In this document: one piece after another, positions 22,205-31,031 of the stretch | Layout of the letters: every line of letters begins with the position of its first letter | Position numbering within the stretch: the stretch's first letter is position 1 | Source of the DNA: Promethearchaeia archaeon | Lineage (GTDB): Archaea > Asgardarchaeota > Lokiarchaeia > Sigyniarchaeales > SOKP01 | DNA: 38,910 nt | Assembly: GCA_029856085.1 (NCBI GenBank) | Contig: JAHQWI010000089.1 | Span: forward strand, 1-38,910 | Direction: 5' to 3' | Made by a program: the position numbers and the translations under genes | The notes under the pieces: model-generated | The model's input: the letters and a program-made list of their open reading frames with translations, nothing else | What the model was told of the DNA's origin: nothing | Databases searched by the model: none

Positions 22205-22843
22205 TTACAAATTCATAAATAAAATAAATCCCCAATTTACAATACCTCCAATAATTAAAGCAAGTGAAATTTCCAGAAAAGAAATTTGAAGTGCGTATTT
22301 CCAATTAGTTTGTTTCGCTATGATGATGATTGTCGCAAAACAGGGGATGTAGAGCATTGTGACTAAGCTGAATGTAATCATTTGAATAGGAGTTAATAAT
22401 TCTACAAGAGTTAATCCCATATTTTCTGCAAAAAGAGCAAGAAGTACAAGCGTTAGTTCTTTACGTAAAATTCCATAAATTAGGAATATTCCTACAGCTG
22501 TTGGAAGACCTAACCAGATTACAGATATTGGTGATAGAATAAGATTAACTGGTTCTAAAGCGTTAAAAATCAACAGAATTTCCAATGTAATTCCAAGAAT
22601 AATAATAATAGGAAGTGCTTTATACACAAATTCTTTAGATCTTAACCATGTTTGCTTCAGGATTACATTATAATTAGGCATCCTATATTCATGCATTTCC
22701 ATAATTAATTCTGTACAAGTTCCAGGCATTGTTTTGTTTAGAATTCTACCTACGATTAAAATAACTGAAAAGTTTATAATAAACAAAAATAGAACCCACG
22801 AAAGACCTAAATATCTCCCAACTAATCCCATAACTACTGTCAT
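22205..22843 (-). CDS. feoB: C-terminal part of ferrous iron transporter FeoB (separate frame)
   Basis: FeoB gate/TM segments: GTCTELIMEMHEYRMPNYNVILKQTWLRSKEFV…. The frame is open upstream as …SLIPCAAT-MTVVMGL. Confidence 0.85.
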   Translation of the reverse strand: MTVVMGLVGRYLGLSWVLFLFIINFSVILIVGRILNKTMPGTCTELIMEMHEYRMPNYNVILKQTWLRSKEFVYKALPIIIILGITLEILLIFNALEPVNLILSPISVIWLGLPTAVGIFLIYGILRKELTLVLLALFAENMGLTLVELLTPIQMITFSLVTMLYIPCFATIIIIAKQTNWKYALQISFLEISLALIIGGIVNWGFILFMNL

Positions 22844-24261
22844 TGTCGCAGCGCAAGGAATAAGTGAGCTAAAGCAATAGAAATCTTTTTTTCTCGCTCA
22901 GTTTCCATAATTCTACATCCCGCGCATGCTGGAACATTACATCCAAAACCTAAAATCATAGGTATAATAGATTTACCGTGAATTCCAACCGTATGCATAA
23001 CCCTATCCATCAAGAATGCTGCCCTTGGGAGATACCCTGAATCTTGTAGAATTTCAATAATTAAAAAAAATGGTATAACATAGACTAATACACCACCAAT
23101 TGCTCCGATTAAGCCTCCTACTCCTCCATCCCAAAGAATTTTGACCCCTAATAAGTTTTTTCCATATACTGAGTAAATTCTTTCGCTCCAAATTCCATAT
23201 CTTTCATCTAATATTCCCCCGAAAAAATTTCCAATGGAAAATGTAAACATATAGATCCCCAAAATAACCAGAATCAATATAACGTATCCCCAGATTGAGT
23301 GAGTGGTAAGATGGTCGATTTTATCAGCAAGAGTAATTTTCTTAGTTTGTTTTTCAGATTGAATTATTAAAACTTGTTCTACTATTTTATTAATGTTGTT
23401 GTAAATTTCAGAAGAAATTACAGTACTAATATCTTCGCCATGAATCTCTTCAAGTTCCTTACGAAAATTATCAGCTAATTGAATGGTATCTAAGGTTGAC
23501 TCATGATTTTCAAATATTTTGTTAATTTCTTCATCATTTTCTAGAAGTTTTATTGCTATAAATCTTGGGGGATAATGAGAGTTAACAACAGATTTTCTAT
23601 CAACACTAATATTTTTTATAAGATCATTGATTTTATTCTCAACTTCCTTTCCAAAAGAAAGGATTACGGATAAATCAGGAATTTCAAATCCACTTTTTTC
23701 ATTATTCAAATTAGGTTGGTGATATATAACCATTTCTATTGCTTTTTCAAGAAGTTGATGGACACCTACCCCATGAACCGCAACCACAGGCAAAACTGGC
23801 AACTTGAAAATCTTTTCTAACTTTTCGAAGTCAAGATCTATATTTCTTTTATGTAAAATATCCATTTGATTCATAGCGAGGATTATTGGAACGTTTAACT
23901 CTAATAATTGAAATGTAAAAAATAAATTTCGTTCAAGATTAGTAGCATCAATAACATTTATTATTAAATCAACTTCCTCAGAAATTATAAATGCTCTGCT
24001 TACTATTTCTTCTATCGTGTATGTTGATAATGAATAAATACCAGGTAAATCAACTATATTAAAGTGATATCCTAAGAAGTCTAATTTCCCTTCCATTTTT
24101 TCAACTGTCTTTCCAGGCCAATTTCCAATCGTCTGTGAAAGCCCTGTTAACTGATTAAATATGACTGATTTTCCCACATTTGGATTACCAGCTAAGGCTA
24201 TATTGATTGAATCTTTATGTTTATCTTTTTCTTTTCGTTTATTCGGTAAATGGTGACTCAT
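22840..24261 (-). CDS. feoB: FeoB N-terminal GTPase and first TM block; ends at TGA after frame disruption
   Basis: ALAGNPNVGKSVIFNQLTG G1 motif, DLPGIYSLS, AMNQMD, GFGCNVPACAGCRIMETEREKKISIALA then out-of-frame HLFLALRQ*. Confidence 0.93.
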   Translation of the reverse strand: MSHHLPNKRKEKDKHKDSINIALAGNPNVGKSVIFNQLTGLSQTIGNWPGKTVEKMEGKLDFLGYHFNIVDLPGIYSLSTYTIEEIVSRAFIISEEVDLIINVIDATNLERNLFFTFQLLELNVPIILAMNQMDILHKRNIDLDFEKLEKIFKLPVLPVVAVHGVGVHQLLEKAIEMVIYHQPNLNNEKSGFEIPDLSVILSFGKEVENKINDLIKNISVDRKSVVNSHYPPRFIAIKLLENDEEINKIFENHESTLDTIQLADNFRKELEEIHGEDISTVISSEIYNNINKIVEQVLIIQSEKQTKKITLADKIDHLTTHSIWGYVILILVILGIYMFTFSIGNFFGGILDERYGIWSERIYSVYGKNLLGVKILWDGGVGGLIGAIGGVLVYVIPFFLIIEILQDSGYLPRAAFLMDRVMHTVGIHGKSIIPMILGFGCNVPACAGCRIMETEREKKISIALAHLFLALRQ

Positions 24262-24337: not shown

Positions 24338-24637
24338 TTATAAGTTACATTGTCCCTGACATCTTACCATGATTTTAGCGGCCAGACCTCGACCAATTAC
24401 TAAGGTAGTACCTTTCACAATTATTTTTAAAGGTCCTTTCAGGGGAGCAGTTTTTTTTTTTAATATTTTTACACCCGGAACGATTCCTAAGTTTGCAAGG
24501 CGTCTTTTAGCTTTGATTCAAGTTTTCACACTTAATACAGTAATTATTTCTCCTTTTTCACATTCTGTTAAACACCTAATTAATGGTGTCTGGAAAATTT
24601 CTTTTTTAATTTGCTTTTCAGGTATAGAATTGATAAT
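24338..24637 (-). pseudogene. feoA: FeoA-like gene with in-frame TGA at 24518-24520 and no ATG/GTG/TTG start
   Basis: Minus-strand translation: …TPLIRCLTECEKGEIITVLSVKT*IKAKRRLANLGIVPGVKILKKKTAPLKGPLKIIVKGTTLVIGRGLAAKIMVRCQGQCNL*. Clear FeoA pattern immediately upstream of feoB. Confidence 0.85.
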
Positions 24638-24776: not shown

Positions 24777-25142
24777 CTAAATTTTAATATTTTCTCTGAG
24801 ATTGTCTATAAACGTGATTATTTCTTTTGGAATAGGTTTTTCATTAGCTATTTTTATAACTGCATTAATTAATTCATTTGTTAAGTTAGCAGGTATTCCA
24901 CATAATAATTCGCAATCACCGAATATTCCATTTTTTCTGGATTCAACGTACAGAAATGAAAAATTCACATCATTACGTTTAATTACATAAGTAGTTACTT
25001 CACTACACACACCGTTAATTATACTACATGCTATTTTTAACGGTTTCTTATAAAGCCTAACATAGGCTTGGATGATATTCGTACAATTACGAGGATTTAA
25101 GATTAGTATAATGCTGTCATAATCCTCGGAATTAGATATTGT
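24777..25142 (-). pseudogene. DUF169-like C-terminal domain, in frame with the upstream FrhB-TrmB ORF after its TAA
   Basis: In-frame continuation: *TISNSEDYDSIILILNPRNCTNIIQAYVRLYKKPLKIACSIINGVCSEVTTYVIKRNDVNFSFLYVESRKNGIFGDCELLCGIPANLTNELINAV…. Confidence 0.65.
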
Positions 25143-26579
25143 TTAAAAAATAATATAATCAAAATCTACATTTTCTAAGTTCATAAGATTGTTCTGGACA
25201 AAAATCGTTTTTAAACACTCTAAAGCTTCAGATTTAATTGTATTAATGTGTTTTTTGAAGTCATTTCTAAAATTGTTTATTTCTCTTTTAATAACGTGAG
25301 AGGGATTGATAGGGCTGTAAACTTGATCTGTTATTGATATCCATTTCCTCTGTTTTAAGGTTTTAAGAATATTATAAATTATTTCTGGTCTTTGCTTCAT
25401 AATTTCACACATCATATTTAAATCAGCTTCTCCTAAAGATAGAAGTGTTATATATGTATCAATTTGAGATTTAGATATACCTAAAAATTTTAAAGCAGAA
25501 TAAATGTTATTATTTGTTTGTGTAATCTGCAATTTCTTTTTCTTCGAAGCGTTTTTTATTTTTAAAAGATCAATTTTGTTGGAAACAAAAATTTTTCTTG
25601 TTGTCAAGGCATCATTAAAGAGCTGTTGACCCGCATTAGAGCGAACTATAACACTATTCCAATTATCATTCAAGGTTCCTACACTTCCTACTGAAATATC
25701 GGCAAATTCAGAAGTATAATCTTTACAAAATTTACAACTTGAAAAATGATATTTGCTTGTATCCTTTATTGAGACTTCTTTAATAGTTCCATCATTTAAA
25801 TAAGCAATAAACTTACCATGAGAAACATCAAATTTCTTAATTTCCATCATACTTACTCCAATTAAATCATGTACAAGGTTAATCATTGAATCGTATGAGT
25901 AATTAGATGAACAAAATAATCCAATAATCAATTTGAATTTTCCATATTTATTTGAAAGAGGTGGCCATAGTTGAAATTTTCTTACTGCTTGAATTTGACA
26001 TGGCAAACCGACAAAGGCAAGATTTTTAATTTTATATTTGTACACTGCCTTTTTATATATACTTAAAGTTGGTAGCATAGCATAGATTGAGCCTGCAGCA
26101 CTAATTACCTCTTCTGGAGTTCTTGCTATGAAGGGTTTAGGATACCAATTTTCATCCTTGTTGGTCATAAGAACTCCATCAATTAATCCAGTATTTAAAG
26201 CTTGGATAAGTAAAGTAGTTACAACTCCACCATTTTGGGCTTTCCTTAAAATATTATTACTTGTACTTTTAGCAGCAATAATTTCTTGATAATGTCCTAA
26301 AAGAAAATCTTTTTGAGTTTGTTCATTAAAAATTTCTTTTTCAAATAATTTTTTTGGAAAAAATGTTCTTGGGCAGTATTTAAAGCATAACGAACACTCT
26401 GGATCATAATCTATTAGTGTTGGTTTATTGTTTTTAATACCAATACGAGGACAGATTGAAAGACAAGCTCCACAATTTATACAATTGTTTTTGCTTATAA
26501 CTAAATCGTATAAATCTTGAAATCCAAAAGACGAAATATCACATTGCAAATAATCGATCATTTGCTCTTTTGTTATCAT
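25143..26579 (-). CDS. FrhB/FpoF-type (F420 hydrogenase beta) Fe-S flavoprotein fused to a TrmB-like winged HTH
   Basis: CINCGACLSICP, CSLCFKYCP, KAQNGGVVTTLLIQAL, LAFVGLPCQIQAVRKF, CKFCKDYTSEFADISVGSVG. The C-terminal LGISKSQIDTYITLLSLGEADLNMMCEIMKQRPEIIYNILKTLKQRKWISI is TrmB-like. Confidence 0.85.
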   Translation of the reverse strand: MITKEQMIDYLQCDISSFGFQDLYDLVISKNNCINCGACLSICPRIGIKNNKPTLIDYDPECSLCFKYCPRTFFPKKLFEKEIFNEQTQKDFLLGHYQEIIAAKSTSNNILRKAQNGGVVTTLLIQALNTGLIDGVLMTNKDENWYPKPFIARTPEEVISAAGSIYAMLPTLSIYKKAVYKYKIKNLAFVGLPCQIQAVRKFQLWPPLSNKYGKFKLIIGLFCSSNYSYDSMINLVHDLIGVSMMEIKKFDVSHGKFIAYLNDGTIKEVSIKDTSKYHFSSCKFCKDYTSEFADISVGSVGTLNDNWNSVIVRSNAGQQLFNDALTTRKIFVSNKIDLLKIKNASKKKKLQITQTNNNIYSALKFLGISKSQIDTYITLLSLGEADLNMMCEIMKQRPEIIYNILKTLKQRKWISITDQVYSPINPSHVIKREINNFRNDFKKHINTIKSEALECLKTIFVQNNLMNLENVDFDYIIF

Positions 26580-26654: not shown

Positions 26655-26674
26655 TATATGTAAACAAACATATA
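26655..26674. repeat. inverted repeat (7-bp stem, 6-nt loop)
   Basis: TATATGT-AAACAA-ACATATA. Confidence 0.5.
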
Positions 26675-26772
26675 AATGTTCTATTTGCATATATAATTAT
26701 TGGGTAAATAATATATGAAATATTATTAGGGCCTAAAACCTTAAGAGACAAATAATATGGGTATTTAAAAAT

Positions 26773-29700
26773 TTAATATGCTTTCATTTTTATCTTTCTG
26801 ATTTTTGTCGGGATCTTTGAATCTCCTAATTTACTTATTTTTTTTGTAAATGCTGTTATTTTTTCCGCAAATTTTTTTCCTTCACTTGCAGAGATTTGGT
26901 GAATCTCTAATCTCTCTTCTTCAATTCCAATCTTTCGCAATAGGGTTTTTAAATGATCCATTCTCAAATAAGCTTTTTCATTTCCACTAATATAATGACA
27001 ATCACCTATATGACAACCGGAGATAAAAACTCCATCAGCACCATTTAAAAAAGCTCTTAAAATATAACTCTTAGACATTCCTCCAGAACACATTGTTCTG
27101 ATAACTCTCACATTTGGAGGATATTGATAGCGACTGACACCTGCTAAATCTGCTCCAGCATAACTACACCAATTACAAAGAAATGCAACTATTTTAGGCT
27201 TACTCTCCTCAGTTAATGATTTTACCGCTTCATTAACCATTGGGTTAATCTGTTTACTTCCATAATGATTCATAATAATTGCAGATGTTGGACATTCGGC
27301 AAAGCACGTTCCACATCCTTTACAAACAGTCTTAATAACTTGAGCTTTTTTTATACTTTCTGTAAATAATCCCATAGGCTTAATAAAATCATATAATTGG
27401 ATAGCATTATAAGGACAGATTTCAACACATTTTCCTCATCCTATACATTTTTTTTCATCTATATAAGAAGTAATGCCTTCGGTTTTTAACATATCTTTAG
27501 ATAATATAGTTACGGCTCTTGATGCTGCTGAAATAGCTTGTGCGATACTCTCTTTTATATTTGCTGTTCCTCTTGCAGTTCCACATAAAAACACTCCATC
27601 TGTTGCAAAATCAGATGGTCTTAATTTAACATGAGCTTCTAAAAAGAAATTATCTTCATTTAAGGGAACTTTTAATATCTTGGCGAGATCAGAGTTTTCC
27701 TTGGGGGCAATAATCCCTGTACTTAATACAACTAAATCGGTATTAAATTTCAGCTCTCCAATATCGGATCTGCTTAATAAAACATTTAATGATTCATTTA
27801 TTACCTTCACTTCCGGAGGTTTATCTTCATTGAATCTAAGAAAGATTATCCCTTTATCTCTAGCTAGATTATAGTATTTTTCTTTAAAGCCATAAGTCCT
27901 AATATCACGGAATAAAATAATAATGTTAATATCTGGATTAAGTTCCTTCGTTTTCAAGGCATTTTTTATTGCTTCAGAACAACATATTCTACTACAATAG
28001 GGATGCTCTTCATTTCTAGAGCCAACACATTGTATCATAACCATTGATCTTATGTTTTTTAGTTTCTTTTCATCGGTAAAAAGAATATTTTCAAGTTTTG
28101 ATTGAATTATAATTCTATCATCTTGTCCAAACAAAAATTCATTATCTTCTGGCTGATATTCTTTTGCTCCAGTAGCCACAATAATAATCCCATGATTAAA
28201 ACTTGTTTGTATTTTTTCTTTGCTATAAATAATATTAGTAGTAAAATTACCAATATATCCGCTAATAGAAGTAATTTGAGCATCTAGAAAAACATTTATT
28301 AATTTATGATTATCAGTTTTTTCAATTAATTCTTTTATAAATATTTGAACATCATCGCTCTCTAAAGAACTAAAAATATTATTTGAGTAACCACCTAATC
28401 TATTATTTTTCTCTACGAGATATACTTCATATCCTTGTTCTGCCAAATTCAATGCCGCAGTCATCCCAGCAACGCCCCCTCCTATTATTATACCCTTATG
28501 AGTAACTTTAACTTTCTGTTCCTCCAAAGGAATTAAATTTCGAACTTTAGCAACAGAAATTCTTACTAAGTCTTCAGCTTTTTCAGTTGCGGCTTCAGGT
28601 TCATGCATATGCACCCAAGAACATTGATCCCTAATATTTGCCAAATCAAATAAATATTTGTTTAAACCTGCTTCTCTAATAGTAGCTTGGAACAATGATT
28701 CGTGTGTTCTAGGTGTACACGACGCCACAACCACTCTATTTATATTATACTCTTTGATTTTCTCTTTAATGTTAACTTGAGTGTCTGCTGAGCATGTATA
28801 TAAATTTCTTTCAGCATATACTACATCAGGTAAGGTTGCAGCATATTCAACAACTTCAGGAACGTTTACTACCCCTCCAATATTAATACCACAATGACAA
28901 ATAAAAACACCAATTCTTGGAGGCTCATTACTTATATCCAATTCTTCAGGAAGTTCTTTTTCTCTAACTAAGGTATTTCTCACATCAGACAAAAGGACAT
29001 TTACAGTCCCTGCTGCTGCACTAGCTTCAATAACAGTTTCTGGAATATCCTTTGGCTCTGAAAACATTCCACATACATATATTCCCTTTCTAGAAGTCTG
29101 GATGGAAAAAAAGGGATCTGTTTTACAGAAACCAAACTCATTCAATTTTATATTTAGCGTCCTAGCTAATTCTAGAGCACTATGGTGAGGTTTTGCTCCA
29201 ACTGAGAGTACGACTAAATTAAAACTTTCTTCTATAATTTTTCCATTTTCAGTTTCATATTGTAAAATAAGGTCTTTAGTATCTGAAACCTCTTTAATAA
29301 AAGATATTCTACTTCGAATATACCTTATACCATATTCATCTTTAGCTCGTTCAATATATTTATCAAAATCTTTTCCACAAGCCCTTATATCCATCGAAAA
29401 TATTGTTGGTTGAACAAGTTCCATATGCTCTTTTGCAATTACTGCTTCTTTTGTAGTATACATACAACATACAGAGGAACAATATTCTATTCCAATATGT
29501 CGATCTCTTGAGCCAATACATTGCAAAAATGCTATTTTTCTGGGAATTAATCCATCAGAAGGTCTGATTATCGTCCCAGAAAATGGGCCACTAGCACTTA
29601 GAATTCGTTCAAATTGAGTACTAGTTACAACATTGAAAAATTTCCCATAACCATAAGATTTAAGAGGTGTTGGATCGAACTCATCAAATCCAACAGCTAA

Positions 29701-30264
29701 AATAATCGCTCCAACATTAATCGTAATAATTTTATCCTCGAGAGTGTAATCTATGGCGTTTGCTTCACATCTACCTTCACATACTCCACATCCTATACAT
29801 TTATCTTTATCAATAGAATAAACTAAAGGCACTGCTTGAGGAAATTTTACAGATATTGCCGATCTTGTTGAAAGCCCTTCATTGAATATATCAATTGCTT
29901 CTACTGGACAAACACGAGCGCATAAACCACACCCTGTACATTTTTTTTGATCTAAAAATAATGATTTCTGTTTTATATGTGCTGTAAAATTTCCCGCTTC
30001 TCCCTCTACTCTCTCAACAGAGGCATTTATTAAAATATTTATATTCTCATGACGTCCGGCAGCGACTAGTTTTGGAGCTAGTATGCAGATTGAACAATCA
30101 TTTGTAGGAAAAGTTTTATCTAATTGAGACATAACCCCGCCTATACTCGTTGTGGATTCTACTATGTAGACTTTATAACCAGAATTCGCTAAGTCCATAG
30201 ATGCTTGAATACCCCCTATACCACCTCCAATGACTAAAACAGCACCAACTTTTTCCATTTTCAT
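26773..30264 (-). CDS. hdrA: HdrA-MvhD fusion with in-frame TGA (27436-27438) at a ferredoxin Cys; candidate selenoprotein, or two ORFs (27436..30264 HdrA; 26773..27375 MvhD)
   Basis: …SYIDEKKCIG-TGA-GKCVEICPYNAIQLYDFIKPMGLFTESIKKAQVIKTVCKGCGTCFAECPTSAI…FLCNWCSYAGADLAGVSR…; continuous frame over 1164 codons. Confidence 0.8.
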
Positions 30265-31031
30265 TCCTCTTTAATTGATATGAATTTTGGATAGATATCA
30301 ATAATTTTATCAAAATCAACTAATCCTCTTGATTTAAGACATATAATATGTTCTAATACTCTATTTGGTTCAACTCTGATTTCTTTTGAAATTTCAGGAA
30401 CAGATTTACTTTTATTTTTTATTTTCAATAAAATTTTATTGCGAATATATTCATCATAAATTGCTTGATCTAAAATCTTATCAAATTCCTCTTCAGAAAT
30501 CACTTCACCATATACATTTCCTTCTGTTATAATAGATCTCTTCCTTCCTATAAACACCCTTAATCTTATATCTGATAATGCTGATTTAATCACATTAAGT
30601 TCATCGGTTATATTTATTTTATATTTCTTATCTTTTATAGGGGAAGGACCTAAATCACGGATTTTTTCAGTAAATTCATTTACTACTTGAGCAAACCTAT
30701 TTCCCTCTGATGCAGATACCCAATCTAATATTAATCTTTCTGAGAATCCGATGAGTTTTAATAATTTATTTAACACACCTATCTTTATCTCTGCTTCATA
30801 ATTTCCGTTTATATAATGGCAATCTCCAAGATGGCAACCTAAAACCATAATGCCATCAATTCCTTTTAAAAATCCCTCAAGAATAAAAATAGGATCAATC
30901 CTTCCACTACACATTACTCTTATCACTCTAAGATTAGGAGCATATTGAATTCGACTCACTCCCGCAAGATCTGCCCCAGCATAGGAGCACCAATTACATA
31001 AAAAACCTAATATTTTAGGTTCATAATCCAA
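30261..31031 (-). CDS. MvhD-like hydrogenase delta subunit with C-terminal HTH-like domain
   Basis: ILGFLCNWCSYAGADLAGVSRIQYAPNLRVIRVMCSGRID…GCHLGDCHYINGN. The C-terminus ILLKIKNKSKSVPEISKEIRVEPNRVLEHIICLKSRGLVDFD is wHTH-like. Confidence 0.88.
   Translation of the reverse strand: MDYEPKILGFLCNWCSYAGADLAGVSRIQYAPNLRVIRVMCSGRIDPIFILEGFLKGIDGIMVLGCHLGDCHYINGNYEAEIKIGVLNKLLKLIGFSERLILDWVSASEGNRFAQVVNEFTEKIRDLGPSPIKDKKYKINITDELNVIKSALSDIRLRVFIGRKRSIITEGNVYGEVISEEEFDKILDQAIYDEYIRNKILLKIKNKSKSVPEISKEIRVEPNRVLEHIICLKSRGLVDFDKIIDIYPKFISIKEE

Follow-up and report, generated by a model that had tools for sequence, protein, structure and literature searches.

The described protein closest to the one analysed here is 8riu_B, the F420-reducing subunit of the ethanotroph CO dehydrogenase (PMC11493965), and FrhB of F420-reducing hydrogenase (e.g. 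6qgr_B, 9r51_B) is likewise related to its redox module. For its C-terminal part, the described counterparts are TrmBL2/TrmB proteins (5bpd, 5bqt), which are DNA-binding proteins in which a winged helix is followed by a long helix (PMC4877046). In Asgard archaea, the recoding that has been described concerns UGA (Sec) and UAG (Pyl, Sifarchaeia) (PMC9723677, PMC11227280). The locus under study lies on the minus strand of a 38,910-nucleotide stretch of DNA from a Promethearchaeia archaeon, referred to below as the window. The initial annotation had read it as the remains of an ancestral FrhB-TrmB-DUF169 protein, interrupted by a single stop codon. Herein, the locus was found to hold, with high probability, two separate things: a complete FrhB-TrmB protein with its native stop, and a 5'-truncated, unrelated DUF169 remnant that follows it (Table 1).

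Table 1. Features of the FrhB-TrmB locus and its flank, in window coordinates.
Feature	Position	Strand	Basis or remark
FrhB-TrmB two-domain protein, 478 aa, complete	25143..26579	-	ATG start, conserved stop, homologue identity
N-terminal ferredoxin-like region	26370..26501	-	C33, C36, C39, C43, C62, C65 and C69 invariant in 19/19
FrhB_FdhB_N, residues 101-174	26058..26279	-	PF04422, E=1.8e-25, 89.3 bits
FrhB_FdhB_C, residues 185-332	25584..26027	-	PF04432, E=1.4e-39, 135.9 bits
TrmB-like winged helix-turn-helix, residues 363-426	25302..25493	-	Pfam, 19/19 orthologues, TrmBL2 profile match, model
Long C-terminal helix after the wing, residues 426-469	25173..25304	-	Model; as in TrmB-type proteins
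TAA terminator of FrhB-TrmB	25143..25145	-	Stop position conserved among orthologues
Probable remnant of a DUF169 gene (C-terminal half), continuing the frame of FrhB-TrmB	24777..25142	-	Pfam-matched core 24864-25127
feoA remnant	24365..24586	-	Compared with FeoA of G001 (L063) and G016 (L060)
feoB, frameshifted	22205..24261	-	Two ORFs, 22840-24261 and 22205-22843

ORF analysis of 24777..26579 (-) found the single TAA in a frame that is otherwise open before its end, and the sequence facts first reported, namely a FrhB-TrmB frame ending at this TAA with DUF169-like sequence following in the same frame, are correct. Upstream of the stop, FrhB_FdhB_N and FrhB_FdhB_C both exceed the curated cut-off and are both present in 19/19 orthologues. 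Fe-S motifs were located by Pfam near residues 27-70; C194, C223, C282 and C285 of FrhB_FdhB_C are invariant in 19 sequences, as are all candidate Fe-S ligand cysteines of the FrhB module. The TrmB family (PF01978) is matched weakly in the window protein alone (24.9 bits, cut-off 25.6) and was recovered in all 19 orthologues (all E<=0.01, best E=1.3e-08), and a profile search of the PDB matched TrmBL2 (5bqt, E=0.0012). In the structure model (pLDDT 87), the C-terminal part is predicted to fold into a winged helix with a long helix of dimerisation type behind it, for which the best PDB structural matches are TrmBL2 chains, with TM-scores of 0.70-0.72 by query length at about 15% identity. Furthermore, non-Asgard FrhB homologues among the best 80 loci of a scan of 84,980 genomes mostly end near residue 350-370; some bacterial homologues extend for another 50-130 residues, with tails that are proline-rich and unlike the winged helix, judged by the tail ends alone. 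Taken together, the TrmB matches of the orthologues, the model and the ends of the non-Asgard homologues indicate that the FrhB-TrmB fusion is real, conserved and, in these data, restricted to Asgard archaea. The proposed joining of an F420-hydrogenase-beta module to a TrmB-like helix-turn-helix is thereby supported as an architecture, by the 19/19 orthologues and by the profile and model matches to TrmBL2. No description of this joining was found in a full-text literature search, whose coverage excluded most subscription papers; two papers that mention FrhB together with TrmB are unrelated, judged by their titles.

The nature of the stop codon was addressed by comparison with homologues. The search covered 97 related genomes, and 18 full-length proteins plus one partial protein reaching the C-terminus were compared. 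Over the whole length, the 18 full-length homologues, from Lokiarchaeia and relatives, share 44-73% identity with the window protein. The stop codons of all 19, which may be TAA, TAG or TGA, fall in the range of -4 to +5 residues around the window's TAA. A second, independent scan, limited to the best 80 loci of the 84,980-genome collection and drawing on organisms partly shared with the first set, recovered at least 25 Asgard loci (Lokiarchaeota/Lokiarchaeia, Borrarchaeum, Sifarchaeum), and all 24 that reach the C-terminus end at the same stop position. In addition, the window protein's final residues, NLMNLENVDFDYIIF, align with those at which its nearest orthologues end, NLMDLENLDFMDIFF, NLMELKNLDFMESIF and NLMELENLDFMDMVF; orthologue C-termini thus account for the residues before the TAA, whose resemblance to DUF169 is incidental. 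Judged from these alignments, the TAA is the ordinary, native and conserved terminator of the FrhB-TrmB protein. It had been thought to stand in place of a Ser codon (TCA) and to split the DUF169 domain, which is not borne out, since the orthologues end there with various stop codons.

The sequence after the stop was examined in the same manner. Downstream of the TAA alone, DUF169 (PF02596) scores 50.5 bits (cut-off 27), and in the read-through product it scores 52.7 bits at residues 463-572. The residues before the TAA therefore add only about 2.2 bits, so that the expected DUF169 support on both sides of the stop fails on the upstream side. Of 209 profile positions, 121-208 are covered after the stop and 98-208 in the read-through product; the match is not full-length, and the N-terminal half (profile positions 1-97) is absent. 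All 121 in-frame codons after the TAA are open at 28% GC, and not one sequence out of 20,000 simulated with a Markov model of matching composition remained open. An open run beyond chance in this simulation marks 24777-25142 as real former coding sequence. The first 40 codons of the piece contain no ATG, GTG or TTG, and the C-x-G-x-R motif, whose C and G are kept in 21/21 relatives covering the site, reads Y-V-E-S-R. The remnant is as similar to its intact relatives as they are to each other, on a branch no longer than theirs, and with similarity still this high the damage looks recent. Its frame is also still open and its GC content by codon position is coding-like, which, together with the ordinary branch length, means that the piece may have functioned until recently or be translated somehow. 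The missing N-terminal half of the same gene was not found elsewhere in the genome, the assembly of which is about 80% complete. Sequence comparison makes it most likely that the DUF169 piece is what remains of an unrelated stand-alone gene which recently lost its 5' part.

Uninterrupted FrhB-TrmB-DUF169 homologues were absent from the 97 genomes and from the best 80 loci of the 84,980-genome collection. Likewise, the 600 bases that follow the stop contained no detectable DUF169 in any of the 14 orthologues with longer flanks. Two candidates were rejected. A DUF169 trace after the stop in G012, obtained as a long phmmer extension, was equalled by 51/200 shuffles. A frame in G024 beat 200/200 shuffles but found no support from intact DUF169 proteins, and it was therefore taken as chance among 42 tests.

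Other DUF169 matches are stand-alone ORFs, mostly of 210-280 aa. Intact genes of the subfamily (L073, L074), two of the remnant's nearest relatives, adjoin ThiF, TusA, NifU-like and ThiI-like genes and one judged by eye to be CysK-like, not FrhB, and these neighbours suggest that this DUF169 subgroup takes part in sulfur transfer. A further match in the window's own genome (L002, G000:C10, 1501-2109, minus strand) contains an in-frame TGA (ASL-TGA-CYGCR), possibly a nonsense mutation, an error or recoding, and this gene seems to run on into cysteine-rich, ferredoxin-like sequence.

The adjoining feoA and feoB also look damaged. The feoA remnant has no ATG, GTG or TTG at its start and carries a TGA (24518-24520) where relatives have Gly, and the feoB frameshift lies between about 22861 and 22894. 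In G001, G012 and G016, by comparison, feoB is a single frame of 699-714 aa, and in G001 feoA and feoB are both intact. No second FeoB copy was found in the window's own genome (G000). The assembly is a draft MAG of 214 contigs, 79.7% complete with 4.45% contamination. None of its 40 ABC_tran matches has an internal stop, which argues against nonsense errors being widespread in the assembly; the feoB frameshift alone may possibly be an error. A truncated MoxR gene suspected near 21.6-21.9 kb was rejected, because the sequence there corresponds, along its full extent, to an independent ORF of G049 (L069).

Several explanations for the in-frame DUF169 sequence were weighed against the two-part anatomy. 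An ancestral three-domain FrhB-TrmB-DUF169 protein broken by a single nonsense mutation would agree with the common frame on either side of the TAA, and the DUF169 alignment can be extended for about 14-17 residues upstream of it. However, the FrhB-TrmB orthologues account for the residues upstream of the TAA; they all end there as well, by different stop codons, and no DUF169 follows in the 14 with longer flanks; the N-terminal half of the domain is missing besides. With no homologue of that order in the genomes and loci searched and no profile support for DUF169 upstream of the TAA, the claim is very improbable. Equally improbable is a recent, lineage-specific gene fusion in which readthrough of the TAA would yield a little three-domain protein. 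The 121 stop-free codons in frame directly after the TAA and their coding-like composition fit it, but recoding of TAA is not known in these archaea and the DUF169 half-domain has lost motif residues. A sequencing or assembly error producing a false TAA has a negligible chance: although the genome is a draft MAG and adjoining feoA and feoB are interrupted too, the stop is conserved in other genomes and the same assembly is free of internal stops in ABC_tran matches (0/40). Also unlikely, if less so, is a reading of the DUF169 piece as a short gene in its own right with a non-standard or internal start, for example an in-frame GTG giving about 77 aa. Its open frame and recognisable family match suit such a gene, whereas the 40 opening codons without ATG, GTG or TTG, the absent N-terminal half and the loss of the motif Cys and Gly speak against it.

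With the TAA as native end and an unrelated remnant after it, the proposed three-part fusion does not exist. The fusion claim can be closed; left standing, it would lead to an annotation of gene disruption or of recoding at the stop codon. For the favoured two-part anatomy, a deletion or rearrangement would have brought the DUF169 remnant beside the FrhB-TrmB stop, and its in-frame position would be a 1-in-3 coincidence. The remnant would have been decaying recently beside the damaged feoA-feoB pair, giving a small decaying stretch that adjoins an intact gene.

Other features were observed among the redox genes around FrhB-TrmB. A TGA at 27436-27438 (-) lies in frame between an HdrA-like ORF (27436-30264) and a FlpD ORF (26773-27375), within a ferredoxin motif reading CIG-TGA-GKCVEICP. 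It probably encodes selenocysteine in an HdrA-FlpD fusion, a reading that agrees with the HdrA/FrhD selenoproteins described from Asgard archaea (PMC11227280). An Rfam scan of 22.0-31.1 kb returned no match, and accordingly no SECIS near this TGA. The ORF at 30261-31031 (-) encodes a FlpD protein with a weak C-terminal ArsR-like helix-turn-helix match, and G016 carries a FlpD-HTH-FrhB fusion (L060:3936-5852, minus strand). The joining of helix-turn-helix parts to Hdr/FrhB-type proteins seems to have happened repeatedly among these archaea. An ATTTATATG element lies at 26669-26677 (-), about 90 bases ahead of where FrhB-TrmB starts, with similar elements in several same-genus orthologues; it may be a TATA-type promoter element.

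Regarding function, the FrhB module would exchange electrons with F420 through putative flavin and Fe-S clusters, and its redox state would alter the putative DNA binding of the winged helix. From redox-altered DNA binding follows the proposal that FrhB-TrmB controls redox/Hdr-type genes, its neighbours among them. That FrhB-TrmB acts as an F420/Fe-S redox-responsive regulator, with electron exchange, redox-gated DNA binding and control of neighbours all inferred, is a tentative reading that falls just short of an even chance. Somewhat more doubtful is the broader proposal of one-component regulation in Lokiarchaeia, Borrarchaeum and Sifarchaeum alike, whereby the F420-reactive flavin/Fe-S module of each FrhB-TrmB protein would act directly on its TrmB-type DNA-binding domain. 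If true, such one-component regulators would tie transcription to the redox state of F420 or ferredoxin. The main rival, itself conceivable at rather below an even chance, is that FrhB-TrmB is an ordinary electron-transfer subunit in which the winged helix serves as a protein-interaction module. All Fe-S cysteines are kept, the neighbours in several genomes include Hdr, Mvh, FrhB-like and methylene-H4MPT dehydrogenase-like genes, and other redox proteins here carry HTH-like parts too, all of which favour an electron-transfer subunit; among solved structures, however, the domain best matches the DNA-binding TrmBL2. Should the regulator reading be right, Asgard archaea would have in FrhB-TrmB a candidate for coupling gene expression directly to F420/Hdr redox state.

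Compared with known systems, the nearest DUF169 relatives (PF02596, COG2043) are stand-alone genes of about 210-225 aa from three other genera of the same family (G021, G023 and G020), which share 46-54% identity with the remnant over the C-terminal half; compared with these, the window piece is missing the first half of the domain, has no start codon early on and deviates at two universal motif residues. The FrhB-TrmB protein is closest to 8riu_B (phmmer E=3.1e-63, about 35% identity), over residues 22-368 that comprise the Fe-S, FrhB_N and FrhB_C parts. Neither 8riu_B nor 6qgr_B and 9r51_B possess the approximately 110 extra residues that are predicted to form the winged helix in the window protein. 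The order of winged helix and long helix is that of TrmBL2/TrmB, whereas the window domain sits C-terminally on an FrhB redox module and is devoid of the large C-terminal part of TrmBL2. This lineage-restricted joining of an F420-type redox module and a DNA-binding-type domain is a variant combination of known families.
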